Assembly (NCBI RefSeq): GCF_964204645.1
Contig: NC_134031.1
Location: forward strand, 4,633,001 to 4,697,000
Origin: Tubulanus polymorphus
Taxonomy: Eukaryota; Nemertea; Palaeonemertea; Tubulaniformes; Tubulanidae
Direction: 5' to 3'
DNA length: 64,000 nt
The translations under genes were made by a program, and so were the position numbers. Positions within the stretch are counted from its first letter, which is position 1. Each line of letters begins with the position of its first letter. The notes beneath the pieces were generated by a model that worked only from the letters and a program-made list of their open reading frames with translations, was not told the DNA's origin and ran no database searches. Of this stretch, positions 658 through 64,000 are shown piece after piece.

Positions 658-1015
<358 letters not shown>

Positions 1016-1274
1016 TACAAGGTATCAATGTATATAAACGTTATTGTAACGGATTTTACGGCGTCGAAAAACCCAATTTCTATTCTGGCGATGATTTTAG
1101 AGTTTTCAAATATGCATTCAACTAACGTTCACCAGATATTCTAGTGTTCTATATACTTCACCCATGAAAGATCGATACATAAAGTTGTATTTGTATCTTT
1201 ACGCAATTTTGGTTTCATGAAGTTTAAGATATTCTTTGATATTTTCCCTTGAATTCATCTCGTATTTTACCTAC

Positions 1275-47910
<46,636 letters not shown>

Positions 47911-50881: not shown

Positions 50882-53800
50882 ATGTCGAGCGAAGAGAGTG
50901 GCGCTATCAACAAAGAAATAAAGCAATATCTGAAACTGTTCTGCATAACCGATAACGAGAACGACCTGTTAGAAATTGTTCAACGGATCGAATCGATCGC
51001 GGTGATTCATGATTTCGCGGATGACAAAATATTGACGAGCGAATTTTTTCGTAAGGCGACGTCAGTTTTTCGTTCACCTTACGCGCGAGAACTCGTCACA
51101 GCGCTGATAGCGGCGCTGAACGGATTCACCGCTAGAGATCGCGTGAGGGAACGGGTTCTGAAAGGAGGAATTCATCGCGACGTTTTAAAAACCCTTCGAT
51201 CGGTCGTCGGCTCGAAACATCCGTTAGACCGCGTACTAGCCGACCAAGCGTCGTTATTCATGCGCAATCTTTCGAAAGTTCCAATGGCGTTAAGATTTCA
51301 TTTCATCGATGATAACGTCGTCGGGGTTTATACGAAATTGCTCGACTGCTGGGACTCGCAGATATTCCAGCCGTCGGAAAGCGCGATGAACCGTCTCGGC
51401 GAATTGGCGCTCGGAAAATCGCTGATCGCAATCGTCGCCGCCGACGAAGAGAAACATTTCGTGCGAAGATTAAAAGCGCTGCGCGACGTGTTGGAAATTC
51501 CGTGTTTCATGCGCGCGAAAAGTCTCGAGCTCTACGATACGACGTCGCCGGACAAGGACGTCAACATCAGAGTCGAAATGATGAAACTCGCCGATATTTG
51601 GAGCGAAGTAAAACTCGATGCGGATAATTTGAATGAGGACCGAACCGTCGCCGTCGTTGAAGAAAAGAAATACGTCGATGTCGAAGTCACTTTTGTCGGT
51701 GAGTTTTTCGTTCATTGAAGAATTGCCAAAGTCTTCATGTTTTCATGCTAGGAACCATGATTTTAGAAGTTTTGAAAATAATCCATAATGAATGGCATGA
51801 AAACGTATTTCTAAAATTGATTGAGTTTATGAAATGGAGTTTCTGTGCTCTGGTTCAAATGAGTTGAAGAAGACTTCTTTAGCAATCCTTCAATACAGTG
51901 CAAAATGGATAGAAAATCAATGGCTTATTCAGACTACAGTTTCACTGGTTGTATAAAGACCAATATTGGAGATATTCATTAGATTAAGCAAAATATCCCC
52001 AAAAAATCAATCCCAGAGAAAAAAATTGGCTTAAGTCATTTATTCGTAAGGTAATGCATTCCTCCTTTTCACAGTTGATGGATGTTCGTTTTGGGCTCAG
52101 CTTTCGAAAACGAGCATCGACAAAGTCAAAGAAATTCGGCAGAAAATAACTTCATTCTCGCCGGAGGAACGGAAGTATTTGCAGATGCCGCCGCCAAACG
52201 GCTGTTTTGTTTGTCTGTCACATGACTCTAATCCGATCAATGGGTGAATTATGATTTCAGTATATTTTCAATATTTTAACGTATTTTTTCTCCTATGCGC
52301 GACAGATAAGAATTTGCATCTTTATATCTTATTTTTTCGCAGGTACGCTCGCGGTATTGTATTAACCAGTACTGAAAACAGTACAACAGTTTTTACTTTG
52401 GATTATGGTGTCAAAGTCACTGTTCCGTGGAGTCAATTATTTTATATATCTCCGAAAATGGGATTGAAAGGTTTAGGACCCCAGGCAGTTTTCTGTCGAT
52501 TAAACGGTGAGTTTTCAAAAGCATATATCAGGGTTCATTCGTAGCGAATCAATGTGCTTTTAAGTGCTTAGTTTTGAAGGGCCCTCACCTTTCACAACAA
52601 TTTCAAAAAGTGTTCAAATACAAAGTGCTTACTTTGGACTTTTTGTATCCCAAATTATTTTTTTAGGAAAATTATGCATTATGCCAATATTAATGCCTGC
52701 ATAAAAAAATATAAAGAAATACATAGGACGAAGCTGTGCAGTCTTTTATGCGTAATAAAAAAAGTAACACTTTTGCCTTACGAAAGTGCTTAAAAAGTGC
52801 TTTCTAATACTGTCGAAGAGTGCGGAAAAGCGCTTACTTTTGTCTCAGCCGCATGTACTAAGCACCCTGTATGTACTGTTAACTCTACCTAGCAAGTCCG
52901 GTTGGATTCTACTAGTTCGCCAACAAACCCTAATCAAATTTGATGATAATGATAAGTAAGTTACGTGATGACACCTTTCTCCAATAGGTACATGTCCTGC
53001 GACGAGTCACAGAGCAGTTTTAAACAACATTTTGGGAACTTTCTATAACTTGTCGATTGACTCTATCTCTATTTGTAAGTAGAAATGGAATTTGAAGGTA
53101 TCAGTATATATTTTGACCGAATTGTTCCGAATTGTATGGACCATAGATCTCGGCCAATAAGCCAGGGACGGATCTTCTGCGAGACTCTCCTAGGTCCGGT
53201 CAAATTTTTGCCCCATTTATTTTAAGGCAATTTGATAAAAAAAGTACATTTCCTTGACACCAATTAAGAAAAGTACCATTTATGACAATTTTGTCAAAAA
53301 TTCTAGAAATGGATAAAAGTGATGCTGCCAGAATGCCATTTCTTAATAATTTGCCCTAACATATTTGGTAAGACCCTCAGACCACCAGATTTTTTCTCTA
53401 AAATATCATGGTGAACGTTTCACAATCTCACTCTGCTCTCTACTCTACTCTTTCTAGGTAGGTGTCTGTTTGATACTTCAGCGATGGATCGACTGTTGCA
53501 ACTTTCCGTATGTACCGATGCTGATGTATCCATGCACGCGTCGAACGTCATCGGTAGTATAGCCGCTCAGTCATCCCTTCGTGAAAAAGTTGCGCAGAAA
53601 GGTGCTTTGAAACTAATGCTCGGTAGGTATAGTGCCACAGACCCCCACTTGCGTCGACCAAACGCTGATAGTAAAGGGTTCGATACAATGCATACGATAA
53701 AGGACTCAGATACCTTTAGTTAAGTTTGCGCTCGGTAAAATTTGACTTGTGAAAATGTAACATCAGATACTACAGTCGGCCTCATTAGCAGTTTTTAGAA

Positions 53801-56800
53801 CTTGACTGATACTATGTTCAGGTATAAAATGTACGGCAACAAGCAGCTCATTAGACTGAGCTTTGAGAAAGGAGGACAAAAGACTGATAATAAACTAAAC
53901 CCGCAGTGACGATTTTACAATTTATATTCCGACAGTTTTGAAGTTTTGACATAGTCTTAGTAATGGTATACGGTACATTAGTTACATATATATTGGTATA
54001 AACTGTCTTATCTGTGTCTTAGCGATCGTCTCTTAGTTCTTGTCCCTATCCTTCTTTAGCAACATCTATATTTTTAAACTACTATATACCTGAATTATGT
54101 TATTTACGTTTCTCTGAAAATGAAGTTAAGCCAAAATTTCGAAACTGTCAGAAAATAGATTGTTAAATCATCAACTGTGGGTTTTGTTTTTAGCACTGAA
54201 ATACTGGGATCGATATCAGTCAGTCTCCCAGTAAAAAAAAAGACAGTGATATGAATCTTCTTACTAATGTTTAGTGGTAATCATATTTACAGACTTGTCA
54301 GTAACAGCAGCTACAGAACCATTCAACGACGATAAAGCCCGCATTTTAAGTGCTTCACTCGGCGCTATCGTCAATATTTTGTACAACTGTTTGGACAATA
54401 AGAACATGTTCCTCGGGTTGGATGGTAAATATTTTTTTCTTCGAAAACCGGAACCCAGTTCCGTAGTTGTGAGTAAGGTTTGAAATTATGTAGCTGATAG
54501 TTTTATTGCAATGAAAGGGTGGCCACTGACCTGGAAAGTTCAGGGAATCTGAAATCTCAGGTAAAACTCGGGGAATACGGATATGTTATTGACCACACGT
54601 TTCTTTATCACTGCATGATTCATAAAAAAATGAATAAATTGTAACATTTTAAATCAAGAAATTTCTCAGATTTTCTGTTATTACATGGAAAAGTCAGGGA
54701 AAATTTTGTAAATTTGTAAATTGGCAGAAAGTGGCCACCCTGAATGGTTAAAACTCTCAAGCTCTCAGTCAAAACTGCGGAACTGGGTCCTTGTTATGTA
54801 TACTGAATACCATTAAGTCGATGAACCTTTCTTTCATTGCCTTACCGACTTGCTCTGTCCCTAGGCTTGGAAACAGTAAGATACATTTATAAGAATGTAA
54901 CCCATACAGAATGTCGTGGTCGAATTAGTCAATTAATCAACGTATTGAAAGCCCAAAATAAAGCGACGAGATGTCAAGTCGCAAAAAATAAGCCGACATC
55001 AACAAAATCCGAGTAAGTGCAGCTGGTAGATATATATCTCTGTTGATAGTTAGACGGCCGTCATATTTTGTTTTCTGTTGCTTTCATCGTGACCGTTCAT
55101 GGTTTGCAGCGGTGATGTGGATTACTTTGCGCGTCCGAGACGGAAATCTGTTGAATTATCCCAGCACGCGATTCGTAAAGTTACAATGGTAGCTTTGAAT
55201 AAAGAAAGGCTGAAAGATGTAAGTTCATCAGAAACCTGTGTTTATATACTATAACATGGTCCCTGCAACTCCTCAATTCCTTTTGAAAACTTTTAAACAG
55301 AACAGGCTTTTTAAATTGAAATTCCTATGATTTCAGCAAAATGCCTTAGACTCCTTTGAAACGCAATTAAAATTTTTTTAGTACACAACCCATAACTCTA
55401 TATTTCTATATTCCTATATTTGGAACCAGAATATTCTAGTTATCCAATTCTATGCTTATTGAATTAGAAATCAAGTTTATAATTATAAAAGATCAAAATT
55501 TCCTTACAAGACCACCAAATTAACAGCTTGCGGAGATAAACAGTACCGACTTTAAGAGAAGTCTTCTGTAATTGGGATATGAAAGTGATGGAGACATTTC
55601 CTTGAAATTTGAAAGTTTCTCCTATTTAACTTCTTGAAAACTCCTTAGATATTCCAGAATGGCTGATCTGTTGAGCCCCTGCTATAAATGAGTGATTTAA
55701 GGAGGGTTAATCTCTTGACCTCATTCAACATTGATCATTGATTATCAATCTGTTTGTGCAGGATTCGAGCGATGAAGAAGTGAATGAGCCGCTGTTGATG
55801 AAAAACCGGTCGAATGACTCACAAACCGATGTGGTTCCCGTGAATGCTGCCTATATGAATGTAGACTGCTCCTACTACGTACAAGGTATTCTTTCCCTCA
55901 TTTCTAGCAACTGATTATCAATAGATGTTTGTTCAGTCTTGTGGATATCAGTAAATATACACTGCCTCACTAACATTGATTTGACTACTCATTGATACAA
56001 AAAAGAAACTTATATCGCATGGATCAAGATTCGGAATAATTTGCTGATGATGTGTGTATGTTTACATATTGGAAACTAAGGAAATCGTTTATGATTTTAT
56101 AGGTTTGCTGGTCAATTTCAAACATGATGAGAAAAATGAGATTATTACGACTACGCAATTGCATCAAATATCTTCCGACGTTCTGGAGAAAATTGTCTGC
56201 GGTTTCTTGAATAGCGGTGAGTGTTCTGGTATTCTGCACTAAAGAAGCGTTGGGGTCCTACAGAGGTTGGCATCTGTGGCATATGTCCCCTTATTGTATG
56301 CCCGATATAAGTCGTAACTGGCAATAACAGAAATCTTAGTAATGGAAACATGTTTTAACTATAGTAAGTACATAAACAGGGTAGCCACTTACCTGGAAAT
56401 CAGGGAGAAGTCAGGAAAATGTTCTTCTCTTCAGAACAGTCAAGGAATATTAAGGGAATTTTGTAAAAAGCTTAAAGTCAGGGATAAGTCAAGGAAATAT
56501 GTTAAAATCACTGTATCGCACGTAAACAATGTGTTACAAAATATATTTTACATATTGGACTGTGTTAATTGATTGGGTTCTTAGCAGATCGAGTCAGGAT
56601 AAACAATGATAAACAGCATGTCATAGAATAGACAGGTAAAAAACAGGATTGATATCCCACCCCCATTGAAACCTCAAACTACCCTCACTGTTACCCTCTT
56701 CAAAAATTCCTGCGCCGCGTCATAAGAATGAAAGACTAATGATTTTTGTATTTTTCTGCAGGTATCACCGGTAGTATTTATTTCGGAATAGCCAAGGAGC

Positions 56801-58406
56801 TACGGGTGATCGGTATACGCATCACGAGACCGGAACGAGATGAATTTCGTCTGGCGGTCGATCGATTCATGGGTCGCCTGAAACCGATCATAAATCCCAC
56901 AGCGTACGAGGTCACCTATTCGCCGGTGGTCTACAAACAGAATCACGATTCTCCCGAATCCAGGATTCATCTGAACGATCTACACGTGATTGGTATGTGT
57001 TAGAATTTTGTTCAGAATATTAGTCCTTTTTGATTACCGGTGCCTGTCTATAGGACACTCGGTTTTTAATTGTCGCATATTTTTCTTACATTTTGGAAAT
57101 GATCAGTTTTCAACCCGGCCTAGAGGTCAACAAGAGTACCAACTAGACTGCAGGGGTCAGATTCATGTGAAAAATGTGAAGAATTGTGAAGCATAAATGT
57201 CTGCTTCAAAAATCGTGGAAAAAAAACGGAAGAATTCGACAAATTCATGAAAAATAGGATCGTGATCAGTAACCGCTTATGTTGTTATTGTACCTTGATA
57301 TGAGAAAATCTGAACCTGTAAAAGAATTTGAAAAATTCTGGTGTTGCGAAAATTCCAGAGTTCATCAATCTGATCGCTGAGATTCTGATCCAATTTCGTT
57401 GTGTTTCTTGCTTGTGCTGGGATCTTATCCGTAAAGACTAACTAATTATTTACACGTTACGATTGAGCTTTATTTGCGATACGTCCCATGACAATGGCGT
57501 CATTCTCCCATCTCTAAATCATGTGACATATTTTGATTGATTCATACAAAACATTCCTCTTTTCCTCTTTCAAGATTTTGAATTTAATTGATCGAGAGCA
57601 ATCTATGTTACTCCCTGCATTCCTCGGCAATTGGAACTATGAGATACAATCCCTTGAAACTGTACCATATTTTCATGGAGATTAATACCAGGATCGTTGC
57701 CCGCATTCTACAGCATGTTGTGTTTCTTGCTCGTCCAGGGGCCAGTTGCATAGTCATGGCTTAGACTTAAGACCAGTCTAAGACCAACTTAGTTCTATAG
57801 CCAATCTAACAACCTGAGACCAGTCTGAAGATTTAAGACCACTTTTGGACTTAAGTCACGACTGTGCAACTGGCCCCTGGGGTCTTATCCTTAAGCTTCG
57901 GCAGTAGATAAAGACTGACCAATAGATATGCACGGTGTTACGACCAAGTTTTATTTGTGTTATGTCCAATGGCATTCTAAAAATCACATGACATAATTTG
58001 AATGATACCGGGTACGCGTAGTATATAAACGATGTGTGTTGAATGTTGCAGAGATTAAAATAAAGAGGTGCTATGACGCACTATACTGCTGTCACGATGG
58101 AAAGAACTATTCCAGAACGAAAAGTGCCGAAACTATAGAATGCAGCGCTCAGGTTTGTGCATAGTACATCAAATAACGGTGTCTCCAGCAGTTGAAATTG
58201 GTTCAATAACCATAGATTCACTTAGAACTCACAAATTTGTTTTTTTTTTTTAGGCCGTGCGTGAACGAGCATTAGCGATTGCAGAAGACAAGTGGGGTGC
58301 TGAAGTGGTTCAGCTGCGGCAAGAAATTGCCGCATTAAAAACGATGATTGAAGATTGTCGAAAAGATTCAAAACCGAAGAAATTCGTGCCAAATAAGATT
58401 ACGTAG
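50882..58406 (+). CDS. ARM-like / Tudor / Schlafen AlbA_2 domain protein (complete, 13 exons)
   Basis: Exons: 50882-51698, 52075-52243, 52343-52506, 52988-53074, 53458-53622, 54293-54424, 54865-55012, 55110-55218, 55762-55885, 56103-56216, 56762-56992, 58052-58152, 58254-58406. All have GT-AG borders; phases agree throughout, giving 2514 nt and 837 residues. Residues 1-272 are helical and armadillo-like. Residues 273-385 form an extended Tudor domain (FWAQ at 278-281; YARGIVL; LDYG at 348-351). Residues 386-511 are again ARM-like. Residues 560-630 are charged linker (RPRRKSVE, DSSDEE). Residues about 630-740 match the Schlafen-type AlbA_2 fold (LVNFK at 641-645; FLNS, GSIYFGIA at 680-687; VIGI). 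A coiled coil at about 795-822 ends it. Tudor domains read methylated arginine or lysine, often on Piwi-type proteins; AlbA_2 domains bind or cut RNA. A germline small-RNA role is inferred. I know no named family with this exact order. Confidence 0.85.
52075..52506 (+). other. Tudor domain exons (exons 2 and 3)
   Basis: Exon 2 opens VDGCSFWAQL, the first extended-Tudor strand, then a helix (KVKEIRQKITSFSPEERK) and a NGCFVC turn. Exon 3 gives GYARGIVLTSTENSTT, VFTLDYG and VKVTVPWSQLFYIS, the core beta barrel. F278/W279, Y330, F346 and Y350 could make an aromatic cage. The split between a Tudor-SN-like flank and a Tudor core in separate exons is typical of extended Tudor units. Confidence 0.75.
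54516..54741. mobile_element. MITE family M2, copy with perfect 12-bp terminal inverted repeats, intron 6
   Basis: Begins AGGGTGGCCACTGACCTGG and ends AAGTGGCCACCCT. Internal units include TCAGGGAATCTG and AAAGTCAGGGAAAATTTTG. It is 226 bp and has no ORF. It lies wholly inside intron 6 of the Tudor/AlbA_2 gene. Confidence 0.75.
55762..56992 (+). other. AlbA_2 (Schlafen-like) domain exons (exons 9-11)
   Basis: Exon 9 is acidic linker leading into YYVQ. Exon 10 gives GLLVNFKHDEKN and VLEKIVCGFLNS. Exon 11 gives GITGSIYFGIAKELRVIGI, then RPERDEFRLAVDRFM and IINPTAYEVTYSPVV. This follows the AlbA_2 order: an 'EFK'-type strand, a helix ending in F-x-N-S, a glycine-rich GxIYFG strand, then a V-x-G-I strand. 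Where catalytic Schlafens have Glu in the EFK motif this protein has Asn (N643), if that alignment is right. Confidence 0.65.
56378..56510. mobile_element. MITE family M2, truncated copy, intron 10
   Basis: AGGGTAGCCACTTACCTGGA, then AATCAGGGAGAAGTCAGG and TCAGGGATAAGTCAAGG match the left part of the copy at 54516. No right terminal repeat is seen. Confidence 0.6.
57398..57545. repeat. Intronic segmental duplication, left copy (empty site)
   Basis: GTTGTGTTTCTTGCTTGTGC and GGGATCTTATCCGTAAAGAC, then TGAGCTTTATTTGCGATACG, TCCCATGACAATGGC and AATCATGTGACATA. It matches 57717-58008 apart from the M1 insertion in the right copy. Confidence 0.7.
57717..58008. repeat. Intronic segmental duplication, right copy (carries a MITE)
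   Basis: GTTGTGTTTCTTGCTCGTCC is followed by the M1 element (57735-57880). Then come GGTCTTATCCTTAAGC, AGTTTTATTTGTGTTATGTC, CCAATGGCATTC and AATCACATGACATAA, all matching the left copy. Both copies lie in intron 11 of the Tudor/AlbA_2 gene. Confidence 0.7.
57735..57880. mobile_element. MITE family M1, copy 2 (146 bp)
   Basis: Left end CCAGGGGCCAGTTGCATAGT and right end CTGTGCAACTGGCCCCTGG are inverted. Internal ACTTAAGACCAGTC and TTAGTTCTATAGCC match copy 1 at 41522. Inserted in a duplicated intron segment whose other copy lacks it. Confidence 0.8.
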
Positions 58407-62191: not shown

Positions 62192-63512
62192 TTAGGTACC
62201 AGCATTTTCCGGTTCCGGGGCAGACGTAAAGCTTTTCCGTCGCATCATCAATTTTTCGGGATCGTTCGAAGCCATATTCGTAAAATCGCGGAAGACATCG
62301 TTGAACGTTGCATCGCCTGCGGTGAAAGTTTTGAAATACATAGACAGTGAAAATATCAAAATCTCGCAAAACTCATCGACCGATATTAGAGAACTTACCA
62401 GGAGTTCCAAACAGACCTTCTGTTTCTTTCATTTCTTCGTTTAATTTTGCTAACCTTAGTCTTTGAAAATGAAGAATGAAATCGTTTTAAAAATTTCAAA
62501 AGTGAAAGTTGTGAAACGCAACAATCAGGAGCCAGTTTTATACAGAAGAGCTCTCAATCAGTTTCTACTTGCTTGAACACTGTACTTACAGAGTGACTAT
62601 ATCTGCATCTGCGGAATTCATCGCGATCGCCAATGGATCAAAACCCTCTCCATTCACTGCATGTTGATTGGCTCCGCGTTTTAGAAACTGACACACTTGC
62701 CTACGATTATACAATAAAAAACGAAAATTTAGATTTTCCTTTCGCCGATTTCTATTTGGAGCAAATCTATGAAACTTACCCGGTATGTCCGAGCAGAGTC
62801 GCGTGATGGAGCGGAGTTTGCCCTTGTTGATCTTTCACGTTCAGTTTAGCACCATTTAGAATGAGAAATTCACACGCCGACAGTGAACCCTAAATCAAAT
62901 ATTGAAATATAAGTTTCAACTGGTTGTAGGGCAATTTTCGATAGCCGGAGATCAGCAATATTTGTCCAGAAAAACAACTGCATTTGTAATTTCCAATACG
63001 TAAAGAATATTTTCAGTTCTAACAGCGCGACCAAGTTCTATAGTTACGTATTCTATCTAAGTCCATAAAGTCAAAGTGAGTTAATTTTCAATGACTTATA
63101 AACTCTGTCATCAAATCTTAAACTGGCGAATTGGTTGCCAAAGTCTCATACGTATTTACATATCAATAACAATTGCGCCTATTGCTACATTATCCAGACT
63201 TTCACAAGATTAATTACAGTAGTTAGCAGTTCAAGTGCAACTGTAAAAAATTTTGAACATTTGATCCATTCTAACTCACACTTTTGACGGCTTGTACGAT
63301 AGAAGTGCGGTCTTCATCGGCCGGATTATTCCAGTTTGGAGAAGCGCTGTGAGCTAATGCTTCTAACATAACCGGTAGATTTCGAGCCTCCGCTGCGCGA
63401 TACAGTAACATGTTTGGATTGAGAGATGTGACGTCCTCCAAAGATGTCGTCGATTTTCTATCTACCTCCACATCTGAGGACACCGACTCCTCAGAACTTT
63501 CCAAATCCATGT
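62192..63512 (-). CDS. ACAP: ACAP-family Arf GTPase-activating protein, C-terminal exons (5' part outside window)
   Basis: Minus-strand exons 63512-63280, 62889-62780, 62700-62590, 62460-62399 and 62316-62192 (stop TAA 62194-62192) join in phase to 641 nt, about 212 residues. An acidic Ser-rich linker (MDLESSEESVSSD) leads into ankyrin repeats: LLYRAAEARNLPVMLEALAH, GSLSACEFLILNGAKLNVKD, GQTPLHHATLLGHTGQV and QFLKRGANQHAVNGEGFDPL. The tail LLRLAKLNEEMKE, TFNDVFRDFTNMASNDPEKL closely follows vertebrate ACAP2/ACAP3. Known of the family: BAR, PH, ArfGAP zinc finger and ankyrin repeats in order, switching off ARF6 in endosomal membrane and actin control. The catalytic part must lie beyond position 64000. 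The frame is intact and all splice sites are consensus. Confidence 0.93.
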
Positions 63513-64000
63513 CTGAAATTAATCTATGTATTTGAATTGCAGTTTTTGCATGATTCATAAGATTTCTCCAAAGAGAGATTTCAAATATGAAAATCAATTA
63601 AGTAATAAGGCCAGCTTTTTTCATATCTTGTTCCGGTGAACACCAAATTTCAACTGGTTTTGGGCAAGGCACGGAGTCTGGTCTGGAGGTTGGTATGCAA
63701 TTCTAGTGCATTAGATCAAGATCAGTACAGAGGATAAGAAGCCAAAATCAAAGTGGATTTTCAAAAGAAACTTGGTCAGGAACGGGGATTTGAACCCCTG
63801 TATCCACAGCTGAACAATATGCTTGCCATTTGGACCAACTAAATCTTTTACAGGGAGGTTTAATACAACAACAGGCGGAACAAAATAGATATCGAAATGA
63901 TATTGAAATCTTACTTATAATCTAATTCTAAATTTGAACAGACGCGGGGGTTCACCATGAACAAATAACAAAACTCTGGCCTTATGATAAGCAAAGGGAT
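63513..64000 (-). other. ACAP intron with a tRNA-like sequence
   Basis: No coding exon is seen. At 63774-63846 a tRNA-like sequence lies on the minus strand. The preceding exon must lie to the right of the window and end in phase 1. Confidence 0.5.
63774..63846 (-). tRNA. tRNA-like sequence, probably a pseudogene or SINE head
   Basis: The minus strand has a good T-arm (GGGGTTCAAATCCCC, B-box GGTTCAAATCC). A D-arm-like GATTTAGTTGGTCC and GGCAAGCA lie upstream at tRNA-like spacing. The 5' acceptor strand complementary to the 3' CCTGACC is missing and no anticodon stem is obvious. I therefore read it as a degenerate tRNA-derived element and not a functional gene. Confidence 0.35.

Follow-up and report, generated by a model that had tools for sequence, protein, structure and literature searches.

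Tudor domains are frequent in proteins that guard germ cells from jumping genes. In Caenorhabditis elegans, three Schlafen-fold proteins make up PUCH, which cleaves capped precursors of PIWI-interacting RNAs (piRNAs). C. elegans has no Zucchini and uses PUCH instead. Of its subunits, TOFU-2 was found to have catalytic residues and TOFU-1 was not; SLFN domains bind both TOFU-1 and SLFL-3 to TOFU-2, and TOFU-1 in turn docks on the extended Tudor domain of TOFU-6 at a site away from the degenerate cage of that domain (PMC10567574). In SLFN13, an inactive N-lobe pairs with an active C-lobe (PMC5862951). Here we describe a gene at positions 50882..58406 of a 64,000-nt stretch of Tubulanus polymorphus DNA (contig NC_134031.1, 4,633,001 to 4,697,000; hereafter the window) that carries an extended Tudor domain and a Schlafen AlbA_2 lobe. 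The cage of the Tudor domain is degraded, the Schlafen lobe appears to have lost its catalytic carboxylates, and elsewhere in the genome lies another Schlafen gene, whose triad is intact. Such a gene would be a new combination of known parts. We propose, as a possibility that falls somewhat short of probable, that its product is the non-catalytic Schlafen/extended Tudor adaptor of an RNA-processing nuclease, paired with the product of the second gene on contig C8.

The gene was modelled as an in-frame chain of 13 GT-AG exons on the plus strand, running from the ATG at 50882 to the TAG at 58406 and encoding 837 amino acids. The model was rebuilt from GT donors and AG acceptors lying at most 14 nt from the approximate exon ends, with stop-containing chains dropped, which left 480 valid chains within the searched neighbourhood. 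The top chain by a simple splice score used the acceptor at 54302 and encoded 834 amino acids; the 837-residue chain, with the acceptor at 54293, came second, 0.5 points lower, and the choice between the two changes three residues only. When each exon was scored for codon use after training on the remaining ones, the model frame ranked first of six in 11 of the 13 exons, the exceptions being exons 6 and 12. The rebuild bore out the 13 phase-consistent exons and 837 residues described in an earlier note on this DNA. That note had also placed a Tudor and an AlbA_2 domain in one gene, and a Pfam search of the joined translation found TUDOR and SLFN_AlbA_2 in the predicted protein, both above the gathering score; no Pfam family matched one full-length shuffle of it. 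The TUDOR match spans exon junctions 1/2 and 2/3 and barely touches 3/4, its tail aligning onward into exon 4. The AlbA_2 match spans junctions 10/11 and 11/12, and our own AlbA_2 profile and the C8 paralogue extend the alignment past 12/13. Two introns hold inverted pairs. Intron 11 contains a foldback resembling a miniature inverted-repeat transposable element (57735-57763 and 57852-57880; 29-nt arms, 90% complementary, 88 nt apart), and intron 6 a second, weaker pair (54446-54477 and 54764-54795; 32 nt, 78%).

The Tudor domain begins in exon 1 (50882..51698, residues 1-272), which encodes a predicted helical N-terminal region and the first Tudor strand, and continues through exon 2 (52075..52243, residues 273-328; N-terminal part of the extended domain, by Pfam) and exon 3 (52343..52506, residues 329-383; Tudor core). 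Its tail, resembling staphylococcal nuclease (SN), lies in exon 4 (52988..53074, residues 384-412). The Pfam TUDOR match (4e-10) covers residues 261-384 and profile positions 3-121 of 121 with 40.2 bits against a cut-off of 23. Extended Tudor domains are defined by a conserved Arg and Asp, an N-terminal extension and an SN-like tail (PMC7255803). The window protein has all of these features of an extended (T3) Tudor: R332 and D349 are the conserved Arg and Asp, the N-terminal extension is present, and the QAVxCRL tail aligns with that of another Tudor domain on contig C3 (C3:24836246-24836437, minus strand, within a 535-residue open frame). As this alignment runs across exon junction 3/4, the SN-like half of the extended Tudor accounts for part of the second stretch that had been taken for armadillo helices. 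In a search of the genome (267.8 Mb in 77 contigs, the window being C7:4633001-4697000), the Tudor/armadillo half had no close copy; six of its seven matches were in the window and the seventh was the C3 Tudor (0.0027).

The methyl-arginine cage of SND1 consists of F740, Y746, Y763 and Y766 (PMC12370926, with PMC3281842 naming F740 and Y766 too), and a hydrogen bond of N768 is required for methyl-arginine binding (PMC3281842). With R332 and D349 as anchors, Y746, Y763 and N768 of SND1 correspond to A331, T347 and V352 of the window protein, and Y766 is retained as Y350. An alternative phmmer alignment, shifted by one residue, sets Y330 at Y746 and keeps one extra Tyr, with the Thr and Val unchanged. 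The F740 position is non-aromatic, in a part where the alignment is uncertain, and the SND1 matches are weak when taken alone (0.06 and worse in one search, 0.045 and worse in the other). The intact aromatic cage and the Asn expected of a dimethyl-arginine binder are absent; the C3 Tudor keeps a Tyr and the Asn at the cage positions that the window protein has lost. Because the cage residues and the key Asn are gone, the domain is probably not a methyl-arginine reader, and the methyl-arginine type assigned to it in the earlier note was rejected on residues A331, T347 and V352. Many Tudor proteins without cage residues may still act in small-RNA pathways (PMC7255803).

The C-terminal part opens with a linker encoded by exon 8 (55110..55218, residues 561-597; placed by splice chain and codon score) and by exon 9 (55762..55885, residues 598-638), in which the Schlafen module starts. 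The AlbA_2 domain occupies exon 10 (56103..56216, residues 639-676), has its core in exon 11 (56762..56992, residues 677-753) and ends in exon 12 (58052..58152, residues 754-787); exon 13 (58254..58406, residues 788-837 and the stop) encodes a C-terminal helix. The Pfam SLFN_AlbA_2 match (1.8e-8) covers residues 660-777 with 35.3 bits against a cut-off of 25.3. A PDB search with the AlbA_2 region returned chance matches only, and a plasmid tblastn search gave no match. A profile built from 80 prokaryotic AlbA_2 sequences, gathered with a hand-typed consensus bait, detected the lobe and extended its alignment to exon 13; since such a bait enriches its own motifs, the set is usable for alignment and not for measuring conservation.

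Rat SLFN13 depends on E205, E210 and D248 (PMC5862951). When the window lobe was aligned jointly with the 80 prokaryotic sequences and the C8 protein, all three MAFFT modes gave Q638 (exon 9), N643 (exon 10) and K688 (exon 11) at the first Glu, second Glu and Asp columns, respectively, and the three modes run without the C8 protein gave the same two residues at the Glu columns. The Asp column was occupied by K688 in all alignments. At least two of the three catalytic carboxylates were changed in every alignment made, and the Glu/Glu/Asp set of Schlafen ribonucleases is missing; the loss of all three is the best-supported reading. The lobe is thus predicted to be a pseudonuclease, and the view of the Tudor-Schlafen chain as a self-contained nuclease did not hold up against Q638, N643 and K688.

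A genome search with PF04326 found one AlbA_2 gene above the cut-off, that on C8, and missed the window gene because its domain is split over exons; counts of Schlafen genes are therefore lower bounds. The C8 gene (positions 901-3023 of the segment that starts at C8:12457939) has four exons and encodes 400 amino acids when spliced. Its SLFN_AlbA_2 match (Pfam, 9.8e-19) aligns from profile position 1. A PDB search with the C8 lobe returned SLFN11, SLFN12 and chain 5yd0, which bears the label Schlafen 8, with E-values from 7e-5 to 2e-4. In the joint alignment the triad is intact as E201/E206/D244; the second Glu and the Asp are 38 residues apart, the distance that also separates E210 from D248 in rat SLFN13. 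The C8 and window lobes are 28-32% identical, and phmmer aligned the C8 and window proteins at 1.4e-10 (E-value for one target). The last introns of the two genes, that preceding exon 13 in the window gene, fall in one alignment column and both have phase 0; for the other two introns that were compared, the positions do not match. Searching the genome with the C8 lobe returned only C8 itself and the window (0.0066). By eye, the C8 protein seemed to start with an RRM, but searches of Pfam and the PDB found none there and we do not claim one.

Between the Tudor tail and the linker, exons 5 (53458..53622, residues 413-467) and 6 (54293..54424, alternative start 54302; residues 468-511) encode putative armadillo-like helices, and exon 7 (54865..55012, residues 512-560) is helical. 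Exons 5-6 resemble designed armadillo proteins with a best E of 1.1e-5 summed over repeats, each repeat being weak alone; the match to yeast Vac8 was 0.29, one shuffle gave no match, and Pfam gave no ARM match on the protein. Exon 1 folded alone was predicted to be helical with a mean predicted local distance difference test score (pLDDT) of 39.3, and exon 11 alone reached 48.2; both models were too poor for a fold search. The N-terminal flank in exon 1 had no convincing match, and matched itself only when a copy was sought across the genome. Of the armadillo helices proposed earlier for both sides of the Tudor domain, those on the C-terminal side retain this faint resemblance and those on the N-terminal side stay unproven.

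The genome contains 27 Piwi-domain matches, 25 of them above the cut-off, in six clusters in which Piwi and Ago were not separated; Argonaute-family genes are present. Three PLDc_2 matches were found, two of which form one gene at C4:5447928-5449492 and the third lies on C1. The C4 gene looks like a Zucchini/PLD6-like gene, in that its product starts with a hydrophobic segment and contains an HHK motif, the layout of that family.

On the reading that we tentatively favour, the window protein would be a single-copy adaptor. A platform of helices, some of them armadillo-like, would hold the extended Tudor within it and be joined by the linker to the non-catalytic Schlafen lobe and its C-terminal helix. 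The dead lobe would pair with the intact C8 lobe, by analogy with the N- and C-lobes of SLFN13 and with TOFU-1 and TOFU-2. The Tudor and helical parts may bind partner proteins via surfaces other than the methyl-arginine cage and could recruit the nuclease to a granule of RNA and protein, for which the germline is the likeliest site. Several points weigh against this proposal. The meeting of the two Schlafen proteins is something we infer by analogy. With the prokaryotic alignment kept fixed and the window lobe added to it, Q638 and N643 fell at the Glu columns in only one of four runs; two runs set H646 and E651 there and one a gap and Q657, so that one Glu, E651, is retained at the second column in some alignments. 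The count of at least two Schlafen genes is only a lower bound, and the 27 Piwi-domain matches are unsorted between Piwi and Ago. Mouse spermatogenesis reportedly does not require SLFNL1, which among described proteins with a single Schlafen module is the nearest one (PMC10567574). The presence of a Zucchini/PLD6-like gene also counts on this side: the Zucchini-free context of C. elegans PUCH, not strictly defining, is not found in this genome, a second 5'-end nuclease or PUCH substitute is not required, and a PUCH reading is lowered accordingly. We regard it as doubtful that a Zucchini-keeping animal outside the nematodes would have a PUCH-like nuclease made from two single-lobe Schlafens, one being the catalytic C8 protein and the other a dead lobe that is fused to the kind of Tudor on which its C. 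elegans counterpart docks.

Other explanations fit parts of the data. The dead Schlafen lobe might bind RNA or protein without any catalytic partner, the Tudor half placing the protein in a granule; such a lone adaptor would agree with the lost catalytic residues and with cage-less Tudor proteins that still work as scaffolds (PMC7255803), but Schlafen lobes are known to pair (PMC5862951, PMC10567574) and the genome holds a catalytic single-lobe paralogue, C8, with the same C-terminal layout and a common intron, and we consider it rather unlikely. A role outside germline small RNAs, such as antiviral defence or RNA quality control as for vertebrate Schlafens, is unlikely to a somewhat greater degree: Schlafens take part in immunity and cleave tRNA (PMC5862951, PMC10567574), yet the extended Tudors of the animal expansion are almost exclusively piRNA-associated (PMC12147562). 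It is improbable that an armadillo/Tudor gene and an adjacent Schlafen gene were wrongly joined. Junctions 7/8, 8/9 and 9/10 are spanned by no domain recognised by Pfam or the profile alignments, and an in-frame ATG at 55099 in intron 7 and an ATTAAA at 55366 in intron 8 could serve this explanation; against it, introns 7, 8 and 9 measure only 97, 543 and 217 nt and have good splice sites and matching phases, and exons 7, 8 and 9 score best in the model frame. Least credible by far is an active Tudor-Schlafen nuclease, in effect PUCH on one chain, for which the Pfam AlbA_2 match and the E651 placed at a Glu column in two of the four added alignments might speak, since two or more catalytic positions are changed whichever alignment is used.

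If the PUCH-like reading with two Schlafens were true, Schlafen nucleases would form a second branch, of ancient origin, in the processing of piRNAs or germline RNA. If both halves belong to one protein, the gene would provide 'Rosetta stone' evidence that a Tudor scaffold and a Schlafen fold cooperate beyond nematodes. Since this genome encodes both a live Schlafen lobe and a dead one, the pair offers a testable case of whether PUCH arose in nematodes or is left over from a system that animals had earlier.

Elsewhere in the window, a minus-strand open frame at 37969-38451 has half of a LIM domain at its end, with a Pfam LIM match (0.023) that stays under the cut-off. Another at 63274-63597, also on the minus strand, had no Pfam match at 0.1 and presumably resembles ACAP proteins. 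Long TA-type and CT-type simple repeats at 13300-13700 and 23650-24090 are open in several frames. Across positions 1-64000 the CpG observed/expected ratio is 1.34 at 39.6% GC, an excess that speaks against methylation of CpG in the germline of this animal.

Compared with described proteins, the window protein shares the AlbA_2 lobe with SLFN5/11/12/13/14, which differ in carrying both lobes on one chain and no Tudor. SLFNL1 of human and mouse (407 amino acids) has a single C-terminal Schlafen module, a layout shared by the 400-residue C8 paralogue, which is likened to it by layout only; the window protein differs in its added extended Tudor and armadillo-like half and its dead active site. 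With the T3 Tudor proteins, the TDRD family and SND1, it has in common an extended Tudor with the conserved Arg, Asp and SN-like tail. In a survey that counted Tudor genes across 111 holozoan proteomes (PMC12147562), no named Tudor protein in Table 1 has a Schlafen or armadillo partner domain, an absence that covers named proteins, as 12 unnamed Tudor orthogroups are also reported; its main text mentions none of the terms AlbA, SLFN, Schlafen or armadillo. No described Tudor-Schlafen chain was found in the literature searched, as judged by titles and abstract openings and by parts of the likeliest papers, which agrees with the earlier note, in which no existing family could be named for this domain order. 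The closest parallel is PUCH with PETISCO (TOFU-1, TOFU-2, SLFL-3/4 and TOFU-6), in which likewise a degenerate-cage extended Tudor goes with a non-catalytic Schlafen fold and a separate Schlafen protein is catalytic. The covalent Tudor-Schlafen partnership hinted at in the earlier note has a nearer counterpart than was noted there, in its degenerate cage, non-catalytic Schlafen lobe and separate catalytic Schlafen gene, while nuclease activity on the same chain would be lost with the carboxylates. Two differences stand beside this likeness: T. polymorphus has a PLD6-like gene and C. elegans has none, and the window gene puts the Tudor and the dead Schlafen on one chain. By analogy of parts, the window gene would be a fusion of the two non-catalytic ends of the chain that runs from TOFU-2 by TOFU-1 to TOFU-6, with the live Schlafen encoded elsewhere in the genome.

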